IMG/VR virus record: IMGVR_UViG_3300042292_000665
Coordinates: 1-46,652 of that record
DNA: 46,652 nucleotides
Direction: 5' to 3' (one strand)
From: a virus
Shown here: positions 4,401-29,673 of the stretch, piece after piece
Layout: each line of letters starts with the position of its first letter
Numbering within the stretch: the stretch's first letter is position 1
Notes under the pieces: model-generated
Told to the model about the DNA's origin: nothing
Databases searched by the model: none
Seen by the model: the letters and a program-made list of their open reading frames with translations, nothing else
Program-made: the position numbers and the translations under genes

Positions 4401-7400
4401 ATATGAATGATAGGTATTTAACCTATTTAAAATCCATTGGAGAATTAGTTCTCCCGATGGAATTTATCGATAGTAATACCTTTACATGGAATTACATGGG
4501 CATTGATTCTCCCTTATTCTCCAATGGTTCTCCACAGATAACAATTTTGTATCAACGCTCACAAACTTGGGCTGCATATTGGTGGCAAATATACGAGTTG
4601 CAATACGGTACACCATATCCGCATCTAGAACCATGGAAATTGCAAGGATACCCAGATAAGCCTGTACAATGGGATAATGTATATTCAGCTCTACCGAATT
4701 CTGGTATGAGATGGAAACCAGCAATGTGGGCAAATATTAGAGCTGGTGTTATTGATACGTCATTACCTTATCCACCTAGCGCACCACCAACATATTCGAT
4801 AATTAGTGTTAATACAACTGGAACAACTCAAGGTTCATACGCTCCTGATGATTTGTTACCGCCACGTATTTCAAATGCTAACCTAGTAGCGATATGCTCA
4901 TTGGTACAGTTTAACGACCCGTCTGTTGTAAGACCTAATTCTGTAATGAACCCTCAACAATTTGGGTTACAAGGTACGCAAGAACGTCAATGGAGAACAT
5001 CTATTGATTATTCTTATGATGTATTATTGGCATTGTTTAGATTACAACCAATCAAAACAATACAAGCTACATTTGGTAATGATTTTTATAATGTTAATGG
5101 TTTGACCATTGATACTGTTACTCAAAATGTACCATCGTATAAAACAACTGTATTCCATGGTACAACATATAATAACAATACCTATTTGGTTAATGGTGTT
5201 AACCAATGGTATATCAATGCGTTACGCTCTAGCAATAATAAAACCGGTATTGATTACTTTAAAACTTTATGGTCATCCTGGACACCTAAATTATCTTATC
5301 AAACAAATACGGTTATCAAAGAAGATTCATTATTAGTTGATAATAAATTATTTGAATTAAATCATAATGATTATCAGTTACATATGAAACGCACACCAGG
5401 TGCGCGTAGCCAATGGTTGCATTCGATACGAGTATCATTATACAAGTATGGTAGCTATTCAATATCTAATACAGGTGAAAAAATACCTACAGCTGATGAT
5501 TGGCAATTCCGTATCGATACATTGATACCGCAAGGTCCAGTGTTAAACTACTATGGTGTACGAACATACGATATCAAATCAGTAGATGTCGATAAAAATG
5601 TTTTTACATTAGATAGCTCATTAAACATACCTTGGGATGTAGATAATAATGTACGTATTAACTACACTGGTATTCAATTTAGTCCAAATAATTTGTATAA
5701 AGCTACAGTACAACAGACTGGTGTAAAAAATACTTTTTCATTATTAGTATATGATCGGTTACGTAGTGATTTTGTTCCAGTAGATTTATACGATACGATT
5801 AAATGTTACAGTTATTCAAATACTATTCCAACAGTTGGGTACTCGTTTGATAGTACTACAGGTAAAATTACAGAGTATACTGCAACAACATCTAGTGATG
5901 TGTTACTTAGAGATTATGATTTAAAATATGATCTAACAACTAACACCTTAATGCAATATCGCTTTCAAACAGGTAAATGGTTATCAGTGTCAGCTAATAC
6001 ATTCGTATTACCTGTAATACACGATAACGTATATTTGTATGATCAGTTTGGTAAATTAGTTAAAGGTGTTGATTATACTGTTGATGTCGCATTTAAAACT
6101 ATAACACTGATTAAATCGGTGAAAACACTATCAGTGTTAATTGCTATACCTAATAATACTATTATTGAAGAACGCGCTGAAACATTTAAGGTATCAACAA
6201 CAAAAGGTAATGTTTCTTGGAGTCATATTCACATCGATAAAGGTAATCCTGTTAAATCGTTAACAGCTCCTGCTGTTGTTACAGGTATTCAAGGTGTTAT
6301 TAATTTTATTGATGGGTATTCAAATTATCTACTTGATAATGGGTTCTCATTTAATGATTATGCAAGACCATTAACTAATTCTTCAGGTAAACTATTTAAC
6401 TGGCAAAATGAGATTGAAAAATTTGTCGCTAAAGTGTACTTAGGTTTTAACACTCGTTATGATCGTGAGTATAGTCTTACAACTAATTCAGTTGCTGTGT
6501 ACGATTATATTGATCTCAATCCATTTAAGTATGAATTCTGGATGAATACCAAATATGGTATTATTTCTAACATTTTAACAGGTCCATATAAAGATATATC
6601 TACTTACCCGGTTGTGTACGATAAATCAGGTAAATCAATTGATACTATGGATGATTTGAAATTATATCGTACAGATAAAGAAACACATGTTACATATACT
6701 ATGTCTTCATCAAATTATATTGGCGGTATTAATATGTTTGTTGATTATTATGAGCATGTTGTCACGTTTAACGATTATACAACAAATAATAATTTAGTAT
6801 TTGATTCTTTCTTAGGGCTAAATAACGAACAATTATATTTGGCATTTAATAAACACTATGAAACAACTAAACGACCTAATATTGGCGGTGGGTTCTTAAC
6901 GAACGGTGCAATTGTAGATAATATTGAATCTACAGCAAAAACATTCTCGGAATTGTATGATATTCGAGCAAATGAGTCTAGTAAACATATAACTGAATCA
7001 CGTAATTTACTAGGCTATAATAATGAACCTTTCTTAAACAGTCTATCTTCAAAATCTAAGTTCTTATTTTGGAATGGGATGATTCGCCATAAAGGTGCAA
7101 ATAGTAGTGTACTGCGGTATTCTAATATTTCTTCTGGTGATGCAATTGAATTAGATGAAATGTGGATGTATAAAATTGACGCATATGGACATAATGAGAA
7201 ATTGCGTGAATTATATATTAACATATTCCCAACCGATGTTAGTAACGATAAAATTATGTATCAACTATCATCGAACCCTGAAACTAATTTTACGGCGATT
7301 ACAGATGGTGACGTTGCCAGATGGAAGTATTTACCAGACGTTGATACTAATAACATATTTGATTATAATGACATTGGCACTGTTCGATATGTTATAGATG

Positions 7401-9493
7401 GGTATGCAAAATTATCAACTCCACCTGTTAATGTAACTTACAAAACATTAACAGGTTTCTATGCATCATTACCTATGCTGTGTGATGATGTTGAGGTGTA
7501 TGTTGAAAAATCATATGATCAAATTTTCAATAGAAAATCACCTTATTCTTCTACTGCTGGGTTAAGTAGTAACCATGTTGAAATACCTGAATATGTAATG
7601 GGTGTTAACATGCTAACCGTTTCTATAAACGGTATAATCTTACCACCAGCAAAATATACAGAAGTTAACACAACTACTATATTAATACCAACACTAAACC
7701 GATTCCGTAATAATGCTACAGTTAATATTATCTACGGTAGAGGTAAATTAATACAACATACTCACTACACTGTATTATCTAATGATTTAGTCTTGTTAAA
7801 AGATACAATCGATTTAAATGCTGTATCAGTTATAGATGTAGTTATGAAACGTATTGATATGACAAACACTACATTAAAACTAGTTGATACAGCTAATAAT
7901 ATTGTTGTATCGTCTAGTGAAATGTTTAATCCAGCGTACGGTGTACATCACAAATCAATAGATAGTGTTAATTATGTTCGCGTGGATGATCCAGCTAATT
8001 ATTTGGATACATTCTGGGGAGATGAACACTTATTTGAAAAATGGGTTGATACATCAAACCTGAATTATCTTCCATATTATGATGTTGATTTATATTCATC
8101 TATGGACCAAATTGATTCATGGGGTAAAACATCTCTTTGGAGTAAATTAACATGCTATGAATGGATTGCATCAGATGTACCTCCATCAGAATGGGAAGAT
8201 AACTTGGGTGGGTTCAACACAGCTGGTAACCGTACTTATGTCGGTGCACCACTAACAATATTGCAAAAAAGTGTACGTCCAACAATATACGATACCTTTT
8301 TTGATTGGTATGATGAAATTCCAACTTATCAGTATGTAAATGCATTTGAATATACATTAACTGATAATAGCTTAACATTTAACGTAACTTTAACTATTGA
8401 TTCAAGTGTAGATAGTTTTGGTGTGTATGTTAACGGTGTTAAAAATCGTGATTATTTATTTACAACAGTTGTAAATGAATCATTAAACGTGTTAGTTATT
8501 GAAACGATGACTATACCAAATATTGCACCAAGAGATAAAATTGTATTAATACGTTTTGCTGATACGCCTGATTTAACTAGAACTCCAACCGATGAAGATT
8601 TAGTAAGATACCAACAAGTGTACAAATATAATGTTATTAGTAAATATGATATTACTGGTACATCTGTATCAAATACGTATTATTTTTGGGCTACCAATCA
8701 AATAACACGTTCAAATCCAACAATGCCATTAGCTATCAACTATATTCGTAGCGGTGATGGTTTTGCACCAAAATTTGGGTTTGCAAATGATAGTATTCAT
8801 ACCGGTTATGAATTGTCAACTGTCGATATTGAACGTAATTTTGTTGATAATACTAATATGTATACCATAGTGTTACCTAACAATAAAATCATTATTAAAA
8901 ACATTAATAAAACTATAACTAATAATGATTACGCAATTCAAATCATTAAAAATAGTGCATTAACGTCTGAAACAAAAGTTATAGATATTAATTCACATGA
9001 TAGGTATACAGAATGGAAAATATTACGTAAAAATAGCGTTGAACGTATTCCTGTTGAGTTGTGGAGTAAAATAACTGAAACTATTACAGGTCGTACAGCA
9101 TCTGGAGACGTTATACCTTCTTATAGTCGTATTTTATTTGATACTGCTAATGGTACGTATACTAGATACGGTATTAACGAAGGACAGGCAATGGGTCCAA
9201 AGGAAGATGTGCTAAATAATATTATTGACCTTATCAATACAGATGATTATGATTTGACTCCTATCGATAAAGATGAGTTTGTTAATACGTATAATTTTAA
9301 TGATTATGATAACACAGTAAAAACAATGAATTATATTTACGAGACATTTAATGTTCGTAATATTAACGAAATATTCTTTACAGTATTGCAAATATTATTT
9401 ACGAGTAACGATAGAGTTGAAGGTATTACAAAAACATCAATGGTATCTTTAGATTGCTCATTAACATTCAACACTGAGAGAAACAATGTTTAG
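1454..9493 (+). CDS. Giant virion structural (baseplate/tail) protein, 2,679 aa
   Basis: This is by far the largest gene in the window. The start ATG is preceded by AAAGGTG at good spacing. The N-terminus (LLPEYFQND, then an NGIDRLLT-like stretch and 'GKVG') matches the opening of very large structural proteins of marine T4-type phages. The body is beta-rich and repeats short modules of the form 'V-x-V-x-V/L-N-G-V/I' (for example 'IQVYLNGVRQYG', 'VSINGIILPPAKYTE', 'FGVYVNGVKNRDY'). A 'GNLWYDTTN' motif followed by 'YSGTSW' near residue 908 resembles a motif frequent in tail fibres. There is no signal peptide and no enzyme motif. It overlaps the next gene by 8 bases, so the two are probably translated together. 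A baseplate or tail location is inferred from the neighbours; the exact role is unknown. Confidence 0.8.
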   Translation: MSDNFDYRKDSIRFAELLPEYFQNDINVSAFSNGIDRLLTADDYVYVQGKVGKQTTTEPNIPEDSLSRATWQLQPLIYSKLGTQEYITSFQDVLNKLERLGVDLSRQDKWMECDQFNFAPPIDIDKFVNYRDYYWVENSPPDYISMNNNVTRAKSLLLEIENGTETTTKQASKDAAIADRDNYQSKIDYALNKARDIERVITPKFQWINSNKWVHRSDLVGYNFAFQAKLPILEYYSNLEVNTWTYTKHNWKYRADQYSEWKSVNSGPTEEELHQRFPITGLTKNTFVIDGDVVYHFGAAFTVVDSSSNDGIHEIDTIAYNSATKKTTITTKKYHSMVPSVFVDSFSTTEYYGSTGSFFGVITPFLKSKHGDNWKGLFIHWLLDSVEPSVPINTQNANYLQKTFTYTVPDYGFDVPYYDGYNADKQIGYDGQSRFTFPISYMIDTDDIQVYLNGVRQYGTYSEAVDVDNNGRFDAEPYNSSRFDSPRHPNQVLANSINFNQPLNIGDHVLIKVGAACVDDYVNYGAVVKYNDIFGLTHIGVKNLTQYRMHEQVKTKPNQYILFDTYNVDGTTNYSANALFRYHEDLSVPVNENIGLRISTKRNDFQFNNLLVNGTKLVCYKEYDNGEVLNTVWRKSNTKYTPKKVNKYRQVSSTNSDWELPDPLRCNIIHECRADLSFRELFTHFKNITKSQTFTKDYVAPDRVCKLLPKLNYTGGNIKEHNGNFDYLISAMHQDVYSYPSIITFAKNKYAENLYDLKQLCINKTAYFADINKDLPNELVIQAIANNIVAKFTDNLLLNLTYFDSTSFKDNIGVRNWIATLPILGLYPSYEPILINDPKLSLNTLRHHDGHLSSSTISASEFASFIGTFNSTNDIKNGNFKFDSATNTLKRCFVNFIQQSQPTTAITGNLWYDTTNIALLQYSGTSWSQVDNSLAWTTFNVIDVINASTLIIERKLYERARLSSVKIDYAAIINNESSKFIDYMNDRYLTYLKSIGELVLPMEFIDSNTFTWNYMGIDSPLFSNGSPQITILYQRSQTWAAYWWQIYELQYGTPYPHLEPWKLQGYPDKPVQWDNVYSALPNSGMRWKPAMWANIRAGVIDTSLPYPPSAPPTYSIISVNTTGTTQGSYAPDDLLPPRISNANLVAICSLVQFNDPSVVRPNSVMNPQQFGLQGTQERQWRTSIDYSYDVLLALFRLQPIKTIQATFGNDFYNVNGLTIDTVTQNVPSYKTTVFHGTTYNNNTYLVNGVNQWYINALRSSNNKTGIDYFKTLWSSWTPKLSYQTNTVIKEDSLLVDNKLFELNHNDYQLHMKRTPGARSQWLHSIRVSLYKYGSYSISNTGEKIPTADDWQFRIDTLIPQGPVLNYYGVRTYDIKSVDVDKNVFTLDSSLNIPWDVDNNVRINYTGIQFSPNNLYKATVQQTGVKNTFSLLVYDRLRSDFVPVDLYDTIKCYSYSNTIPTVGYSFDSTTGKITEYTATTSSDVLLRDYDLKYDLTTNTLMQYRFQTGKWLSVSANTFVLPVIHDNVYLYDQFGKLVKGVDYTVDVAFKTITLIKSVKTLSVLIAIPNNTIIEERAETFKVSTTKGNVSWSHIHIDKGNPVKSLTAPAVVTGIQGVINFIDGYSNYLLDNGFSFNDYARPLTNSSGKLFNWQNEIEKFVAKVYLGFNTRYDREYSLTTNSVAVYDYIDLNPFKYEFWMNTKYGIISNILTGPYKDISTYPVVYDKSGKSIDTMDDLKLYRTDKETHVTYTMSSSNYIGGINMFVDYYEHVVTFNDYTTNNNLVFDSFLGLNNEQLYLAFNKHYETTKRPNIGGGFLTNGAIVDNIESTAKTFSELYDIRANESSKHITESRNLLGYNNEPFLNSLSSKSKFLFWNGMIRHKGANSSVLRYSNISSGDAIELDEMWMYKIDAYGHNEKLRELYINIFPTDVSNDKIMYQLSSNPETNFTAITDGDVARWKYLPDVDTNNIFDYNDIGTVRYVIDGYAKLSTPPVNVTYKTLTGFYASLPMLCDDVEVYVEKSYDQIFNRKSPYSSTAGLSSNHVEIPEYVMGVNMLTVSINGIILPPAKYTEVNTTTILIPTLNRFRNNATVNIIYGRGKLIQHTHYTVLSNDLVLLKDTIDLNAVSVIDVVMKRIDMTNTTLKLVDTANNIVVSSSEMFNPAYGVHHKSIDSVNYVRVDDPANYLDTFWGDEHLFEKWVDTSNLNYLPYYDVDLYSSMDQIDSWGKTSLWSKLTCYEWIASDVPPSEWEDNLGGFNTAGNRTYVGAPLTILQKSVRPTIYDTFFDWYDEIPTYQYVNAFEYTLTDNSLTFNVTLTIDSSVDSFGVYVNGVKNRDYLFTTVVNESLNVLVIETMTIPNIAPRDKIVLIRFADTPDLTRTPTDEDLVRYQQVYKYNVISKYDITGTSVSNTYYFWATNQITRSNPTMPLAINYIRSGDGFAPKFGFANDSIHTGYELSTVDIERNFVDNTNMYTIVLPNNKIIIKNINKTITNNDYAIQIIKNSALTSETKVIDINSHDRYTEWKILRKNSVERIPVELWSKITETITGRTASGDVIPSYSRILFDTANGTYTRYGINEGQAMGPKEDVLNNIIDLINTDDYDLTPIDKDEFVNTYNFNDYDNTVKTMNYIYETFNVRNINEIFFTVLQILFTSNDRVEGITKTSMVSLDCSLTFNTERNNV

Positions 9494-23976: not shown

Positions 23977-24675
23977 TTATTTTTTCTTTGGAATATATAC
24001 ACCAACACCATTAATGACACAATGAAATAAATCTTTTTCCATGATAAAGAAATTACCGGTGTCACTACCTTGCAACGCTTTCAAAATATATGCAATTGGG
24101 TATCGAATTATGAAATTTACAGCTTGAAATTCATCTTCAATATTTACTGCAGTTCCTTCTGAGTATAGTAATTCGTCGTTATCACCATCTAAGATCTTGT
24201 ACGTTACTTCACTATCTTCTGACAATATTACAATTTCATCAGATTTCATTGCACGTTTCGATTTATTCAATACATCATATAGTTTTTCTGTTATCTCAAT
24301 TCGATATAACGGCTTTACGGCTAATGACGAAGGAGGTTTGATCTTTTTAGTGTTAGCACATCTATAACTAACTTTCATCTTTTTTGATTTAAATTTCAAT
24401 GATTTAGCTTCGCCATCAGAGAAATCATAAATGCAATCAACTTCAAGATCTTCTGGCTCAATTAATGTTATACGGCTACCTAACACATCTAATCTGTTAA
24501 TACCAACAGCTGCACAACCGATATCGTTTTCACATATTGTAAATATCGCTGCTGTTGTATTATCACTTATACCTGATATTTTGTCAGGGTACATTATGAA
24601 TGATTCAATCCCAAATTGCTTTGCTACTGCAACAGATGATATTAAGTTATCAACCGTTTGTGTGTCTAATATCAT
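23977..24675 (-). CDS. Probable sliding clamp (T4 gp45-like)
   Basis: It has 232 residues (T4 gp45: 228). It starts 10 bases after the stop of the DNA polymerase gene. The layout fits two PCNA-like halves: 'SFIMYPDKISGISDNTTAAI' strands in the first, and 'IVILSEDSEVTYKILDGD' with a C-terminal 'RYPIAYILKALQ...FFIMEKDLFHCVING' pattern in the second. The basic stretch 'SLKFKSKKMKVSYRCANTKK' fits a DNA-facing or linker region. As the clamp it would tether the polymerase, and in T4-type phages it also activates late transcription with gp55. Identity is too low to be certain by eye, so the assignment leans on size, pattern and position. Confidence 0.6.
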   Translation of the reverse strand: MILDTQTVDNLISSVAVAKQFGIESFIMYPDKISGISDNTTAAIFTICENDIGCAAVGINRLDVLGSRITLIEPEDLEVDCIYDFSDGEAKSLKFKSKKMKVSYRCANTKKIKPPSSLAVKPLYRIEITEKLYDVLNKSKRAMKSDEIVILSEDSEVTYKILDGDNDELLYSEGTAVNIEDEFQAVNFIIRYPIAYILKALQGSDTGNFFIMEKDLFHCVINGVGVYIPKKK

Positions 24676-24685
24676 TTTTACCTAC

Positions 24686-27600
24686 CTAAAAATTAAATAA
24701 TTCATCAGCGTGAACTGTTTGAGCTGTTGGTACTGCTACATCAATAGCTTTTAATATATTTTGCAATGGGTTATCAACTAATCTTGATAGTTGCTTTGTT
24801 TTGTCAATTTGAGGTACAAAATTCTCCATAAACCAATCTGGAATATGTTCAATATCAGATGGCAATGCAATAGATGTAAATTTACCTAACATCTTGGTTT
24901 TTAAATAATAAACTCGTATTTTCATACCTGATGTTATCATTTCCGTATCATGGTCATCATATTCTTTTAATCTTTCATTGAAATGTATAGCTGCAGCTAC
25001 GTTACCAGGTAACCTCGCTTTAACACCATCGACTCTATACACCATATCGTATTTTTCAAGATTGTTAACGTTTTTTGGTAAACCTACATCTACAAGATTA
25101 TCAAAACTCATTAACGCTTCTTTATAGTTGACGATATCAATTGCTATATCTTTCCATTCTTCACCTTGCAATAACCGTTTGATGAAGTCAGTTAGTTTAG
25201 ATGAAATGATTTTAGGTAATGTAGTCTTTTTAATATCAAGACCCATAATTTTCATTTTATCTACTGTTTCACCTTCGTTATCAACCACATGCAAAATATA
25301 TCGTTTTTTCTCAACGAACAACCCATGATCACTAACAACCTCACGTCCACATTTCACTTGTAAATCATATTCAGGTTGACAATGAAACGCTTTTCTCATA
25401 AAAGCTGGGTATGATTGATTTACAGCTTCAGCTACAGCATCAGCGAATGCGATAGCTTCTTCTTTATTGTTAGCTGGTACTGTAAAATATGTCGAATCAG
25501 TATTGTGAACTAATATATTGTTAGCATAAAAAACATGTGTATCATCAACTTCAATATCGTAAACATACCCATTGTAAGCTATTTTTTCAATTTTGTATAC
25601 ATCAGTAACACAGAAACTTTTTTGTTCTGATGTTTTTTCATATTCAAGGTTTACCGCTACTACAACATATTTTTCATCTTCTAACTTAACAGCTGCGTGT
25701 TGCCCACTTAGCATCATGTAGTGAACTTGACGTAAAGCTGATTCTTTATCGTTAAAACTCAGACACCCTGTATAATCGTTACCTCCGGTAAAGCATACTA
25801 ACTTTCCAATCAACCCATACGGTTTTACTTCTGTAATGTTACCTTCAATATAATGCATTAAACTATGATCTTCTGTTACATCTATGTAGCTGTACTCAGA
25901 CGTCCAAACACGATACATCTGTTTTTTACATTTATGTCGCATTACGTATTTTATATTACTAAAACATTCTATATCTAACGTTTTATCATATGTTAACGCT
26001 TTAACACCACTGAGGTTGCAATATTCTTTACCATCTTTAGTTATTATATCAGATGTCATTAAATCTTCAATGAATAAACACCTATCTGTCAAATACACCA
26101 CCGTATCACCAGCTACACTATCACCATATACAACTACTTGAGATGTAAATTCACCTTTGAATTTTGGACCATCTAATGCCATCTCATGAGTTACAAACCC
26201 AGGATGATAATATTCTTTATGCTCTAAATCTACTAAATCAGCTAAGGATGATTCACCCACCGCGCTACTTTCATCTTCATCGTCTTCTTCAAAATCAAAT
26301 TCACTGTTCTCTTCTGCTAAACGCTTTCCGGTTTCTTTATTGATGTTGTCAATAATAGCCATACTTTCATAGATAGGAAAATCAATATAGTACTCACCGT
26401 CAATAATGTAGTTCGTTTGTCTACATTGATGTCTTAAGATTTGACGACTAGTACCTGTTGTAGATTCACCTAATTCTAATCTGAAGAATCTGAAATTGTA
26501 GTTACTTAAACAACCATACGTTGAGTTTAATTTAATTTTGAAAATATACTGTAACCGATTGTAATACTTAGATTTTTCTGTTATTTCAAAGTATAAATCT
26601 TTATCATAATCAGTTCGTTCTACTGCATAACCTGATGAGAAATCATATTTTAAAGCTTCTGCTTCTTTAACATACTTTCTCATTTCAGCTTGATACACTT
26701 TACGTTGAGAATACCATTTAGCTAATAATGATGGAATAATACCTAATTCTTTCTGAGTGAATACAGTACCATAACCACTTACAGCCCAACATTGCTCAGC
26801 AAAATAATCAACCCACTCTTGTGTCTTTTTAGTTTCATATGTTCCGTCATCATACTTAATTGTAATGTCGTCTTCAATACCTTCATAGATTTTAGTCCAA
26901 TCTTTAATATTGTTTTCAAATTGACCTATAACGGTTTCTGGACTAATATTGATAGCTCTAATAGCTGAAGGGTAAAGTGAGTTAATATCAATAGAACAAA
27001 TCCATTTATGTAGACCTCTTTGAGGAAATAATACATAAGCTCCTTGAATTTTACCATCTCTTGTATCCCATCTATCAGGTACAATACGATTAATCTCATA
27101 ATGACAATAATTAACAATAGCATTGTCAACCATTCGTACAGTACCAAAAATATGATTAAACTGATTAGTACTAGAATGAATCATATCATTCGCTAACTGA
27201 ATATAAGTAAGCTTTGTTTCAAAACCTTTTAGAATTTCCGTATCACGAATATTATATCGCAAAAAATGATTAAAATCGTTTGTATATAACTGTTCTAATG
27301 AACCTGGATATGTTAACTTTTTAAGATGAGGTAAATGATCTTCAGCAACTGATTCTAATTTGAAGCTAGCTCGTTCACCACCTTCAAACTTCTTAAATAA
27401 TTCAAGATAATCTAGTTGTATACGACCGCTATAATCAACTCGTAACTGCTTAGCACCTTTAACGAATAGCTCTCGAAACATTGGTATATTAGCACCTTCA
27501 AAACTTAATCGTTTGAAATGGTCAGCTCCGAGTACTATTTCAACTCGTCTTGCTACATACGGGTCATCAAAGCCGCCACTATTCCACCCACTTAATACAC

Positions 27601-27988
27601 TAGCTTCTTCTAATTCATTTAGGTACGCTAATAGTAATTCTTTTTCGTTTTTATAAAATCGAATTTCAGTTAATTCATGTAATGATTGATCTACAGTTTT
27701 AAGGTCAAACCCTGGAGGTGGAACAGCCATAACGATAGACTTATCAAGCCATTGTTTATACATCGATATAGCATTAATTGGAGCATATGGATTTTGTGGA
27801 CTACTGAAACCGATAGGTCCCTCATATGTGTAATCGGAGTGTTCATATACGATCCATTTTCTATACTTACTATCATAAACTTCGACATCTTTTTTTAGTT
27901 TGTTTGGTAAGCTTCTAACTTCTTTTAATGAACATTCAATATACACATATTCATCATCTTCATCATAAACGTTATACGTTTCGTCCAT
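24686..27988 (-). CDS. Family B DNA polymerase, C-terminal part of a split gene, with in-frame intein
   Basis: It has 1,100 residues, of which 206 are intein. Exo II is at 136-141 (NSGGFD), Exo III at 245-249 (YNIRD), motif A at 334-341 (DINSLYPS) and motif B at 486-492 (KLNSTYG). Motif C is interrupted: YGD at 621-623, intein 624-829, TDS at 830-832, so splicing restores YGDTDS. An acidic insert lies at 563-578. Exo I ('YDIEV') is missing here and is found in the separate ORF at 28993-29421. The ATG at 27988 has a strong AGAGG, located inside the end of the HNH gene, so this part can be translated on its own. The probable clamp follows. Processive replication enzyme; whether the exonuclease works depends on assembly or splicing with the N-terminal piece. 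Confidence 0.93.
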   Translation of the reverse strand: MDETYNVYDEDDEYVYIECSLKEVRSLPNKLKKDVEVYDSKYRKWIVYEHSDYTYEGPIGFSSPQNPYAPINAISMYKQWLDKSIVMAVPPPGFDLKTVDQSLHELTEIRFYKNEKELLLAYLNELEEASVLSGWNSGGFDDPYVARRVEIVLGADHFKRLSFEGANIPMFRELFVKGAKQLRVDYSGRIQLDYLELFKKFEGGERASFKLESVAEDHLPHLKKLTYPGSLEQLYTNDFNHFLRYNIRDTEILKGFETKLTYIQLANDMIHSSTNQFNHIFGTVRMVDNAIVNYCHYEINRIVPDRWDTRDGKIQGAYVLFPQRGLHKWICSIDINSLYPSAIRAINISPETVIGQFENNIKDWTKIYEGIEDDITIKYDDGTYETKKTQEWVDYFAEQCWAVSGYGTVFTQKELGIIPSLLAKWYSQRKVYQAEMRKYVKEAEALKYDFSSGYAVERTDYDKDLYFEITEKSKYYNRLQYIFKIKLNSTYGCLSNYNFRFFRLELGESTTGTSRQILRHQCRQTNYIIDGEYYIDFPIYESMAIIDNINKETGKRLAEENSEFDFEEDDEDESSAVGESSLADLVDLEHKEYYHPGFVTHEMALDGPKFKGEFTSQVVVYGDSVAGDTVVYLTDRCLFIEDLMTSDIITKDGKEYCNLSGVKALTYDKTLDIECFSNIKYVMRHKCKKQMYRVWTSEYSYIDVTEDHSLMHYIEGNITEVKPYGLIGKLVCFTGGNDYTGCLSFNDKESALRQVHYMMLSGQHAAVKLEDEKYVVVAVNLEYEKTSEQKSFCVTDVYKIEKIAYNGYVYDIEVDDTHVFYANNILVHNTDSTYFTVPANNKEEAIAFADAVAEAVNQSYPAFMRKAFHCQPEYDLQVKCGREVVSDHGLFVEKKRYILHVVDNEGETVDKMKIMGLDIKKTTLPKIISSKLTDFIKRLLQGEEWKDIAIDIVNYKEALMSFDNLVDVGLPKNVNNLEKYDMVYRVDGVKARLPGNVAAAIHFNERLKEYDDHDTEMITSGMKIRVYYLKTKMLGKFTSIALPSDIEHIPDWFMENFVPQIDKTKQLSRLVDNPLQNILKAIDVAVPTAQTVHADELFNF
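25502..26119 (-). other. Intein in polymerase motif C (206 aa, endonuclease-less)
   Basis: The insertion begins with Ser (SVAGDTVVYLTD, block A). Block B is 'YIDVTEDHSLMHY' (T-x-x-H). The C-terminal part has 'GYVYDIEVDDTHVFYANN' (block F) and ends in 'ILVHN' (block G, His-Asn), followed by Thr as +1 residue. All splicing residues are therefore present: Ser1, block-B His, penultimate His, terminal Asn and Thr+1. The roughly 90 residues between B and F lack LAGLIDADG or HNH motifs, so the homing nuclease domain seems lost or replaced. The insertion point between YGD and TDS is a known polymerase intein site. Confidence 0.9.
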
Positions 27989-28970
27989 TAATACCTCTAT
28001 CGATGATTATAAATTTATTCCCGGTACTACGTTGTAACCCACCATGTTTGCTTATGTAATATCGAACACTACTAATACACGTATTGTATTTTTCTCGCAA
28101 CTCATTTGATTTAACAGTTTGTTGTGTGCCATCTGGATGTATTACCAAAATAGTACTGGATTTTGTATCACTTATTTTTGATCCCTTTTTCACTTGATCA
28201 CAACTCAACATGGGTTTGATCCGATTTTCTATCTCTTGAGAGGTTAAACAATCCAAGTGTTTTTTGATAGCTGCTGATGTACGTTGTCTTTTCATTTGTT
28301 CGGTGTTATTATGTCCATGAATATACAGACGCTCATTTGTTAGATTTTGTGTTACTTTTTTAACACTACCGCAACCACATGCACATTCGGTTAAATGTCC
28401 TTTAATCCACCGATGATGTTTACTATATGTACTATAACCACAACCACACAAACACTCATTATGTCGGTATAATGGACCATCCTCGGATACCTGACATACT
28501 CTACACACCGTGCTACTATCATTTAATTTCAATAATGTTTTACGTCCACATGATGAGCATATTTTATGTGTGTATCTGGTTTGTTCAGTACCACCATATC
28601 TACTGATTATAGCATACTCAACACGTAGAGCAAAAATAATTTCATTTTTCTCTATGCTGTAATTGACGCTAGAATTTAACCTAGGGTTTAACAATTGTAC
28701 CGCTCCAAATAATTGTTTCTTTACAGTCACATCAGGTATATCTTTATGAATTTGCACTAATAACCGATGACATATATAATGTTCTTTACTAGTTAACATC
28801 GTCAAATTATCGTCACTATCACTTCCACCTAAACATCTAGGTATTATATGGTGCATATGATAGCCTTTATTTTTCACCTTATTTGCAGCTTGTCTTTGTT
28901 TACCACGTTCAACTAAAATATTATATGCTTTTATGTAATTCATATGATTTTGAGATTGATTAAAACACAT
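27972..28970 (-). CDS. HNH homing endonuclease with zinc fingers, inserted in the polymerase gene
   Basis: It has 332 residues. The HNH core lies at about 37-70 ('GYHMHHIIPRCLGGSDSDD', then 'NLTMLTSKEHYICHRLL'), with H40-H41 and the Asn/His of the second half. Zinc-finger-like Cys clusters follow at 138-159 (CSSCGRK...CRVC), 173-178 (CLCGCG) and 196-201 (CACGCG). The C-terminus (about 270-315) resembles a NUMOD-type DNA-binding repeat ('VIHPDGTQQTVKSNELREKY'). It begins 22 bases after the stop of the N-terminal polymerase ORF and overlaps the start of the C-terminal polymerase ORF by 17 bases. A late-like GATAAATA sits just before its ATG. Its expected activity is DNA cleavage at the uninterrupted polymerase allele, spreading itself. 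Confidence 0.88.
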   Translation of the reverse strand: MCFNQSQNHMNYIKAYNILVERGKQRQAANKVKNKGYHMHHIIPRCLGGSDSDDNLTMLTSKEHYICHRLLVQIHKDIPDVTVKKQLFGAVQLLNPRLNSSVNYSIEKNEIIFALRVEYAIISRYGGTEQTRYTHKICSSCGRKTLLKLNDSSTVCRVCQVSEDGPLYRHNECLCGCGYSTYSKHHRWIKGHLTECACGCGSVKKVTQNLTNERLYIHGHNNTEQMKRQRTSAAIKKHLDCLTSQEIENRIKPMLSCDQVKKGSKISDTKSSTILVIHPDGTQQTVKSNELREKYNTCISSVRYYISKHGGLQRSTGNKFIIIDRGINGRNV

Positions 28971-28992
28971 ATTTATCTATCTCAATATCATA

Positions 28993-29421
28993 TTACATTT
29001 TTACATCTTTTTTAGGTATGCGTATTTTAACAATTGTATCATCGCTAAACGATCGCGTTCGATAAAACACTTCGATATCGTATAGCAGTACGTTTAGTGT
29101 TGGAGCTGGCTTTTCGTAATAATGCTTTGATAATACCTTCGTATCAGGTGATATGTCAGACTCGTATAGTTTAATATTCTTTTCTGTTAAAAGATATTTT
29201 CTAGCTTGTCTAAATTCTGTATAGGTATCAAATTCATATTTTTCAAGAGGTTCACCGAATACACTTGTATATGAACCACCTTCTTTCTTAACATAAAATT
29301 CAAAAACACCTGGGTATCTTTTGAGAACATTTTTACCATCTATACATTCCCAGACAAGGACATCATCATTATTGATAAAGCCCCTGTCATCTCTTTTCAT
29401 TATAGCACTAATATAAGCCAT
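28993..29421 (-). CDS. DNA polymerase N-terminal fragment carrying Exo I
   Basis: It has 142 residues. The layout matches the N-terminal domain of T4-type family B polymerases: 'KRYPGVFEFYVKKEG', 'FGEPLEKYEFDTYTEFRQAR' and 'IKLYESDISPDTKVLSKHYY' lead into 'PTLNVLLYDIEVFY', the Exo I motif with D and E of the 3'-5' exonuclease site. The ORF then ends after 'IRIPKKDVKM'. The remaining exonuclease residues and the polymerase domain are in the ORF at 24686-27988, beyond the HNH gene. The start has GAGG four bases upstream of ATG. This is a split gene. It may work as a separate chain, or be joined by RNA splicing; I see too little non-coding sequence for an ordinary group I intron. Confidence 0.8.
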   Translation of the reverse strand: MAYISAIMKRDDRGFINNDDVLVWECIDGKNVLKRYPGVFEFYVKKEGGSYTSVFGEPLEKYEFDTYTEFRQARKYLLTEKNIKLYESDISPDTKVLSKHYYEKPAPTLNVLLYDIEVFYRTRSFSDDTIVKIRIPKKDVKM

Positions 29422-29643: not shown

Positions 29644-29673
29644 AATAGAAAAAGGGTGAATTAATTCACCCTT
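29644..29673 (-). terminator. Intrinsic terminator after the DsbA-like gene
   Basis: The perfect palindrome AAGGGTGAATTAATTCACCC plus TT (29652-29673) forms a stem GGGTGAA/TTCACCC. On the minus strand it is followed directly by TTTTTCTATT. It begins 8 bases beyond the stop codon of the DsbA-like gene, the classic position. It separates that gene from the polymerase operon. Confidence 0.85.

Follow-up and report, generated by a model that had tools for sequence, protein, structure and literature searches.

The 46,652-nucleotide viral contig IMGVR_UViG_3300042292_000665 (positions 1 to 46,652, referred to here as the window) encodes a T4/RB69-like family B DNA polymerase whose gene is split in two by an HNH homing endonuclease gene. 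The break lies inside the exonuclease domain: one open reading frame (ORF) has Exo I, and another has Exo II, Exo III, and the polymerase motifs. We consider it probable, from the sequence evidence described below, that the two chains reassociate noncovalently and share one exonuclease site. The same break was found in four lineages.

An original prediction for this locus, made from the window's letters alone, had described three ORFs (28993-29421, an HNH gene in the interval, and 24686-27988), with Exo I (YDIEV) at the end of ORF1, the other motifs in ORF2, and a strong ribosome site for ORF2 inside the HNH gene. All of this held up: the ORFs are on the minus strand, with the HNH gene at 27972-28970, and the ribosome site is GAGGT at 27993-27997, 4 nucleotides from the ATG. 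Three features were absent from it: a mini-intein in motif C, a lineage-specific module at the break, and the recurrence of the break in four lineages. The features of the locus are as follows.

28993..29421, minus strand: ORF1, 142 amino acids, N-terminal domain and Exo I of a T4/RB69-like family B DNA polymerase (phrog_262)
29068..29082, minus strand: Exo I, YDIEV, residues 114-118 of ORF1
28996..29067, minus strand: 5' half of a loop module of about 60 amino acids (FYRTRSFSDDTIVKIRIPKKDVKM), up to the ORF1 stop codon (from alignment with the unsplit relatives L002 and L003; predicted strand at 130-135 in L002)
28975..28989, minus strand: second, Exo-I-like stub, GATATTGAGATAGAT, which reads DIEID and lies between the ORF1 stop codon and the HNH gene (shuffle tests)
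28970..28977, minus strand: GATAAATA, a putative promoter that adjoins the stub and has one mismatch to the T4-type late promoter TATAAATA
27972..28970, minus strand: HNH homing endonuclease gene, 332 amino acids (phrog_655, E = 9e-24; Pfam HNH, E = 0.0012, which is below the cut-off)
27993..27997, minus strand: Shine-Dalgarno sequence GAGGT for ORF2, within the HNH gene
24686..27988, minus strand: ORF2, the remaining DNA polymerase (Exo II, Exo III, and motifs A, B, and C), 1,100 amino acids including an intein (Pfam, phrog_262)
27812..27940, minus strand: 3' half of the loop module (IECSLKEVR...YEGPI), by homology; predicted strand-helix-strand-strand
27557..27583, minus strand: Exo II, NSGGFDDPY, in ORF2
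27236..27259, minus strand: Exo III, RYNIRDTE, in ORF2
25502..26119, minus strand: in-frame mini-intein, 206 amino acids, in motif C between YGD and TDS (Pfam Intein_splicing, E = 3e-12)

ORF1 and ORF2 both match the DNA polymerase family phrog_262, and ORF2 also matches the Pfam families DNA_pol_B (E = 6e-28) and DNA_pol_B_exo1 (E = 4e-10). Motif A (DINSLYPS) and motif B (KLNSTYG) are both on ORF2. The HNH gene and ORF2 overlap by 17 nucleotides, and the first 16 or so residues of ORF2, which overlap the end of the HNH gene, are new.

Two relatives of the window's polymerase, L003 (up to 94% identical) and L002 (73%), are uninterrupted at the break site. In comparison to these, the alignment of ORF1 ends at about residue 139 (KKD/VK), and the alignment of ORF2 resumes at about residue 142 (IEC = IDT), with practically no coding sequence lost. 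By this alignment, ORF1 and ORF2 are a single polymerase encoded by two genes, because L002 and L003 read through the site and the two ORFs jointly align to all of it; the original prediction was thus right that the HNH gene interrupts a polymerase. The layout is that of genes in pieces, with two ORFs, an endonuclease ORF between them, and unsplit relatives. The polymerase has Exo I, II, and III and the polymerase motifs of the T4/RB69 type, and the AlphaFold2 model of the unsplit L002 has the RB69 gp43 fold (Z of 41 and root mean square deviation of 3.0 over 552 residues).

PolB loci were gathered from IMG/VR by eight scans, which yielded 151 distinct loci in which Exo I and Exo II are both present. 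The interval between these motifs is open in 147 of the 151 and interrupted in 4: the window (and L004), L016 (the same in three contigs), L113, and L336. All four of the interrupted loci bear the loop module, with the break at the same turn of it in each, and none of the short-loop loci among the 151 is broken. The module is unbroken in seven distinct lineages (L002, L003, L019, L024, L061, L096/L097, and L099). The residues of Exo I, II, and III and motif A are intact in all four split lineages. The polymerase body of L336 is close to a distant PA5oct-like group. At the same site as in the window, L113 and L336 have HNH genes that are homologous to the window's. L016 lacks an HNH gene but is still split; its ORFs of 93 and 198 amino acids are not endonucleases, according to Pfam and PHROGs. 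Therefore, the two-gene state outlives the endonuclease.

In most relatives, the distance from the DIE of Exo I to GFSSP is 30 nucleotides, and in a minority it is about 200 nucleotides, that is, they have the module of about 60 amino acids. These modules are homologous, because hidden Markov models built with one clade left out recover the left-out clade's module at 30-70 bits, versus 11 bits or less for shuffled sequences. On a tree of polymerase bodies, in which some supports are low (such as 0.34 for the placement of L336), the modules are in 6 separate clades; a single ancestral gain implies 18 losses, and the split state implies 4 changes. In AlphaFold2 models of the unsplit L002 and L061 (predicted local distance difference test scores of 84.8 and 87.2), the module is strand-strand-helix-strand-strand, and the break corresponds to the turn of the first hairpin in both (strands 130-135/141-145 in L002 and 122-127/130-135 in L061). 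Sequence alignment to RB69 puts the module between the Exo I strand and the following GF, which suggests that it adjoins the exonuclease site. The loop has no convincing match to a known domain in Pfam or PHROGs, and the module was not found in GenBank phages. The weak GenBank matches to the loop that were inspected are a different protein beside an intein-bearing polymerase gene (LR756508) and a small protein near nrdA (phiWec188). No relatives of ORF1 were found among bacterial and archaeal genome contigs.

In comparison with L003, codons 1-118 of ORF1 have a nonsynonymous divergence (dN) of 0.08 and a saturated synonymous divergence (dS) of 2.9, or dN/dS of about 0.03. Judged by this ratio, ORF1 is under strong purifying selection. 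dS is far higher on the ORF1 side than in the body of ORF2 (about 0.4-0.9), and this excess cannot be attributed to the window alone because the pair L003-L002 has it too. The nucleotide identity of the module halves is 0.48-0.53 for window-L003 and 0.50-0.60 for window-L002, versus 0.68-0.80 for L003-L002. The divergence of the halves is consistent either with gene conversion that brought them in together with the endonuclease or with rapid evolution once the gene was split.

We considered several other explanations for the split. The insertion might be recent and damaging, so that proofreading is lost and ORF1 is a decaying fragment. The strong divergence of the window's loop halves, which flank the insert, would fit with decay, as would the residue after DIEV, which is F in the window and D in relatives. 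(A search of the literature for an RB69 exonuclease-site residue gave no result.) However, Exo I is intact, ORF1 has the low dN/dS given above, and the same split is kept in four lineages, in one of them after the loss of the HNH gene, so we consider decay unlikely. An assembly or sequencing artifact is hardly credible: although every copy is from metagenome contigs, the layout of L016 is found in three of them, and the contig L004 (IMGVR 3300042384_000936) has the same three-gene layout as the window with at least one amino acid difference. The original prediction had named an assembly error as something that would refute it, and L004 makes such an error unlikely.

Two further explanations would restore a continuous polymerase. 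The original prediction had also named an intron as fatal to it; the insert would be a self-splicing group I or II intron that contains the HNH ORF, and group I introns in phage polymerase genes do house HNH endonucleases (SPO1 type). However, Rfam scans of the inserts of the window, L113, and L016 gave just chance-level matches, with no match to an intron up to E = 5. On each side, homology to the polymerase begins again no more than a few codons from the HNH ORF, so that almost nothing outside this ORF is left to form a ribozyme. ORF2 is equipped with a start codon and Shine-Dalgarno sequence of its own, overlapping the HNH stop, and L016 remains split with unrelated cargo ORFs. We therefore rejected the intron as very unlikely. 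Alternatively, the chains could be joined by protein splicing if the break were the site of a split intein, as in fractured genes. These polymerases often contain inteins or split inteins, at motif C and Exo II, but the tail of ORF1 and the head of ORF2 align to the host polymerase rather than to intein blocks, and the junction between Exo I and Exo II has neither the Cys/Ser of block A nor the HN of block G. Also, four unsplit loops had no Pfam intein match, and a profile comparison between the loop and inteins gave a probability of just 0.5%. We consider a split intein at this site to be highly improbable. By eye, the loop resembles an intein N terminus (a hairpin and then I..EL), but Pfam and the profile comparison gave nothing, and we did not retain the idea of an intein relic.

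We favor the explanation that a free-standing HNH gene of the phrog_655 (MobE-like) family homed into a T4/RB69-type polB gene and divided it in two. ORF1 would then provide the N-terminal domain and the Exo I strand, and ORF2, translated from the ribosome site within the HNH gene, would provide everything else. Because the break falls at the turn of a beta hairpin in an optional module, each chain would hold one strand of that hairpin. The chains would rejoin without a covalent link and re-form the exonuclease fold together with its active site, with the Asp and Glu of Exo I from the first chain and the aspartates of Exo II and Exo III from the second. The optional module would be the spot where a break is tolerated, and it might also be a docking surface. 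The HNH gene would be retained because the start signals of the essential large chain lie within it; such embedding of an essential gene's signals is a known means of retention (PMC2988022). The intact residues and the purifying selection argue for the shared active site, and we infer from the sequences that two polypeptides form in vivo, that they assemble, and that proofreading is active.

Some observations count against this explanation. The window's HNH gene has no clear Shine-Dalgarno sequence, and neither does ORF2 of L016. The HNH gene of L113 is frameshifted, which is due either to decay or to a sequencing error. The AlphaFold models are of unsplit relatives (L002 and L061) as single chains. 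Finally, the loop halves have diverged much further in the window than in L002 and L003, which could mean that constraint has weakened.

The window's HNH protein matches phrog_655, and the H, N, and H residues align in the window, L336, and L113. It is a free-standing member of this MobE-like homing endonuclease family, with presumed homing activity. Relatives of it lie between nrdA and nrdB in L178 and, by sequence, in L179. Its homologues start at the MNY codon (28943). The HNH gene and ORF2 overlap in the window and in L336 and probably in L113.

After the stop codon of ORF1, there is a second copy of the Exo I motif, which reads GATATTGAGATA in the window, GATATAGAGGTT in L113, and GATATCGAAGTA in L336. 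In these three loci, it lies 22-34 nucleotides upstream of the conserved HNH start codon. When the spacers were shuffled, the stub was matched in 105 of 20,000 shuffles for the window, 43 of 20,000 for L113, and 28 of 20,000 for L336. L016, which lacks the HNH gene, has no stub. Just downstream of the stub, TATAAATA is found exactly in L113 and L336 and with a single mismatch in the window. The stub may be an operator of the I-TevI type, in which case Exo I would be the homing target, or it may be a remnant of an earlier insertion point. In I-TevI, a copy of the homing-site sequence is found at the late promoter upstream of the endonuclease gene (PMC2988022), and the stub is reminiscent of this operator. 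The resemblance is one of sequence, whereas for I-TevI, a GIY-YIG endonuclease encoded in an intron, binding has been tested. Translational read-through or bypass into the second DIE copy was rejected, as the frame of the stub relative to ORF1 differs among the three loci.

At the ends of the HNH insert (28963-28977 and 27941-27955), there is an imperfect direct repeat, GAT(A/G)AATATGTGT(T/A)T. Its copies are in the same reading frame relative to the stub and to ORF2 and may be a trace of the insertion. Across both strands of the window, TATAAATA was found 4 times, versus about 14 times expected from the dinucleotide composition, which might reflect avoidance of late-promoter-like words. We do not claim that it is a general promoter in the window. 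Nor do we claim that TTGATT-17-TATAAT before ORF2 of L016 is a promoter: in the window and in L016, promoter-like sites are no more common than in shuffled sequences.

A more elaborate scenario, which we view as possible but doubtful, is that the mobile unit is larger than the endonuclease. It would also include the beta-beta-alpha-beta-beta docking mini-domain of about 60 amino acids, cut at its first turn, which would enable a split host enzyme to reassemble, and the Exo-I-like operator with a late promoter, which would allow self-repression. The unbroken modules would be scars left by precise loss of the endonuclease, and the interrupted target between Exo I and GFSSP would now make these polymerases resistant to it.

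Phage enzymes that are split by homing endonucleases, including split gp43, are already known. Aeromonas phage 25 also has a T4-type family B polymerase in two genes (gp43A/gp43B) with a homing endonuclease gene between them (the seg43 insertion), and its split chains copurify and have polymerase activity (Petrov, Ratnayaka and Karam 2010, cited in PMC2988022). However, the endonuclease of phage 25 is of the GIY-YIG type, and 43A (498 codons) has both Exo I and Exo II, so that its exonuclease site is in one chain, whereas in the window the HNH gene separates Exo I from Exo II and III. In Pseudomonas phages MIJ3, PA5oct, and Cassandra and in Klebsiella phage KP13-7, polB likewise consists of two ORFs that flank an endonuclease ORF, but the break is at motif C and the fragments carry the N- and C-terminal halves of an intein, so protein splicing can rejoin them. 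These cases bear out the statement in the original prediction that the known breaks in gene 43 lie elsewhere. In Aeh1 nrdA (HNH mobE) and the T4 topoisomerase gene (mobA), free-standing HNH genes likewise turn essential enzymes into genes in pieces, but these are other host genes. Despite its split, the NrdA of Aeh1 retains full function (PMC2988022). What is new here is that the gene is broken within a single active site, that this break recurs, and that a module is associated with it; the known polB breaks that we examined lie elsewhere.

If the chains do assemble, this would be a natural replicative polymerase with its proofreading active site divided over two polypeptides. With one precise point of breakage in four lineages, these loci are natural replicates of how a selfish gene breaks an essential enzyme and the host survives. 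That the break recurs at the turn of a hairpin, within an optional module, suggests where a polymerase can be cut and still reassemble by itself. The window would also be a concrete case of an endonuclease that keeps its position because its gene contains the start signals for an essential chain.

Several other features of these loci are worth recording. The mini-intein in motif C has the pattern S...HN. L003 has no intein there and has a large intein at Exo II instead, and L002 has split-intein halves at motif C, so there are three intein states among these close relatives. In the IMG/VR contigs L183 and L192 (around 3000), relatives of the HNH gene lie between an apparent intein N-half ORF and a C-half ORF (N...HNC) of another enzyme, which is an arrangement of the fractured-gene type. 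In L113 (5329-7885), the polymerase is apparently in three pieces: besides the break in the exonuclease loop, it is broken again before motif C, where there is a LAGLIDADG gene (7052-7708, PF03161). In L016 (4433-5344), a HEAT-like ORF of 93 amino acids and a 198-amino-acid ORF without a family match replace the endonuclease, as cargo in a split polymerase gene. In the window, a candidate sliding clamp gene is directly downstream of the polymerase (23977-24675, minus strand), with a weak match to the processivity factor phrog_223 (E = 0.0016), and a perfect terminator-like hairpin, AAGGGTGAATTAATTCACCCTT, lies upstream of ORF1 (29652-29673).

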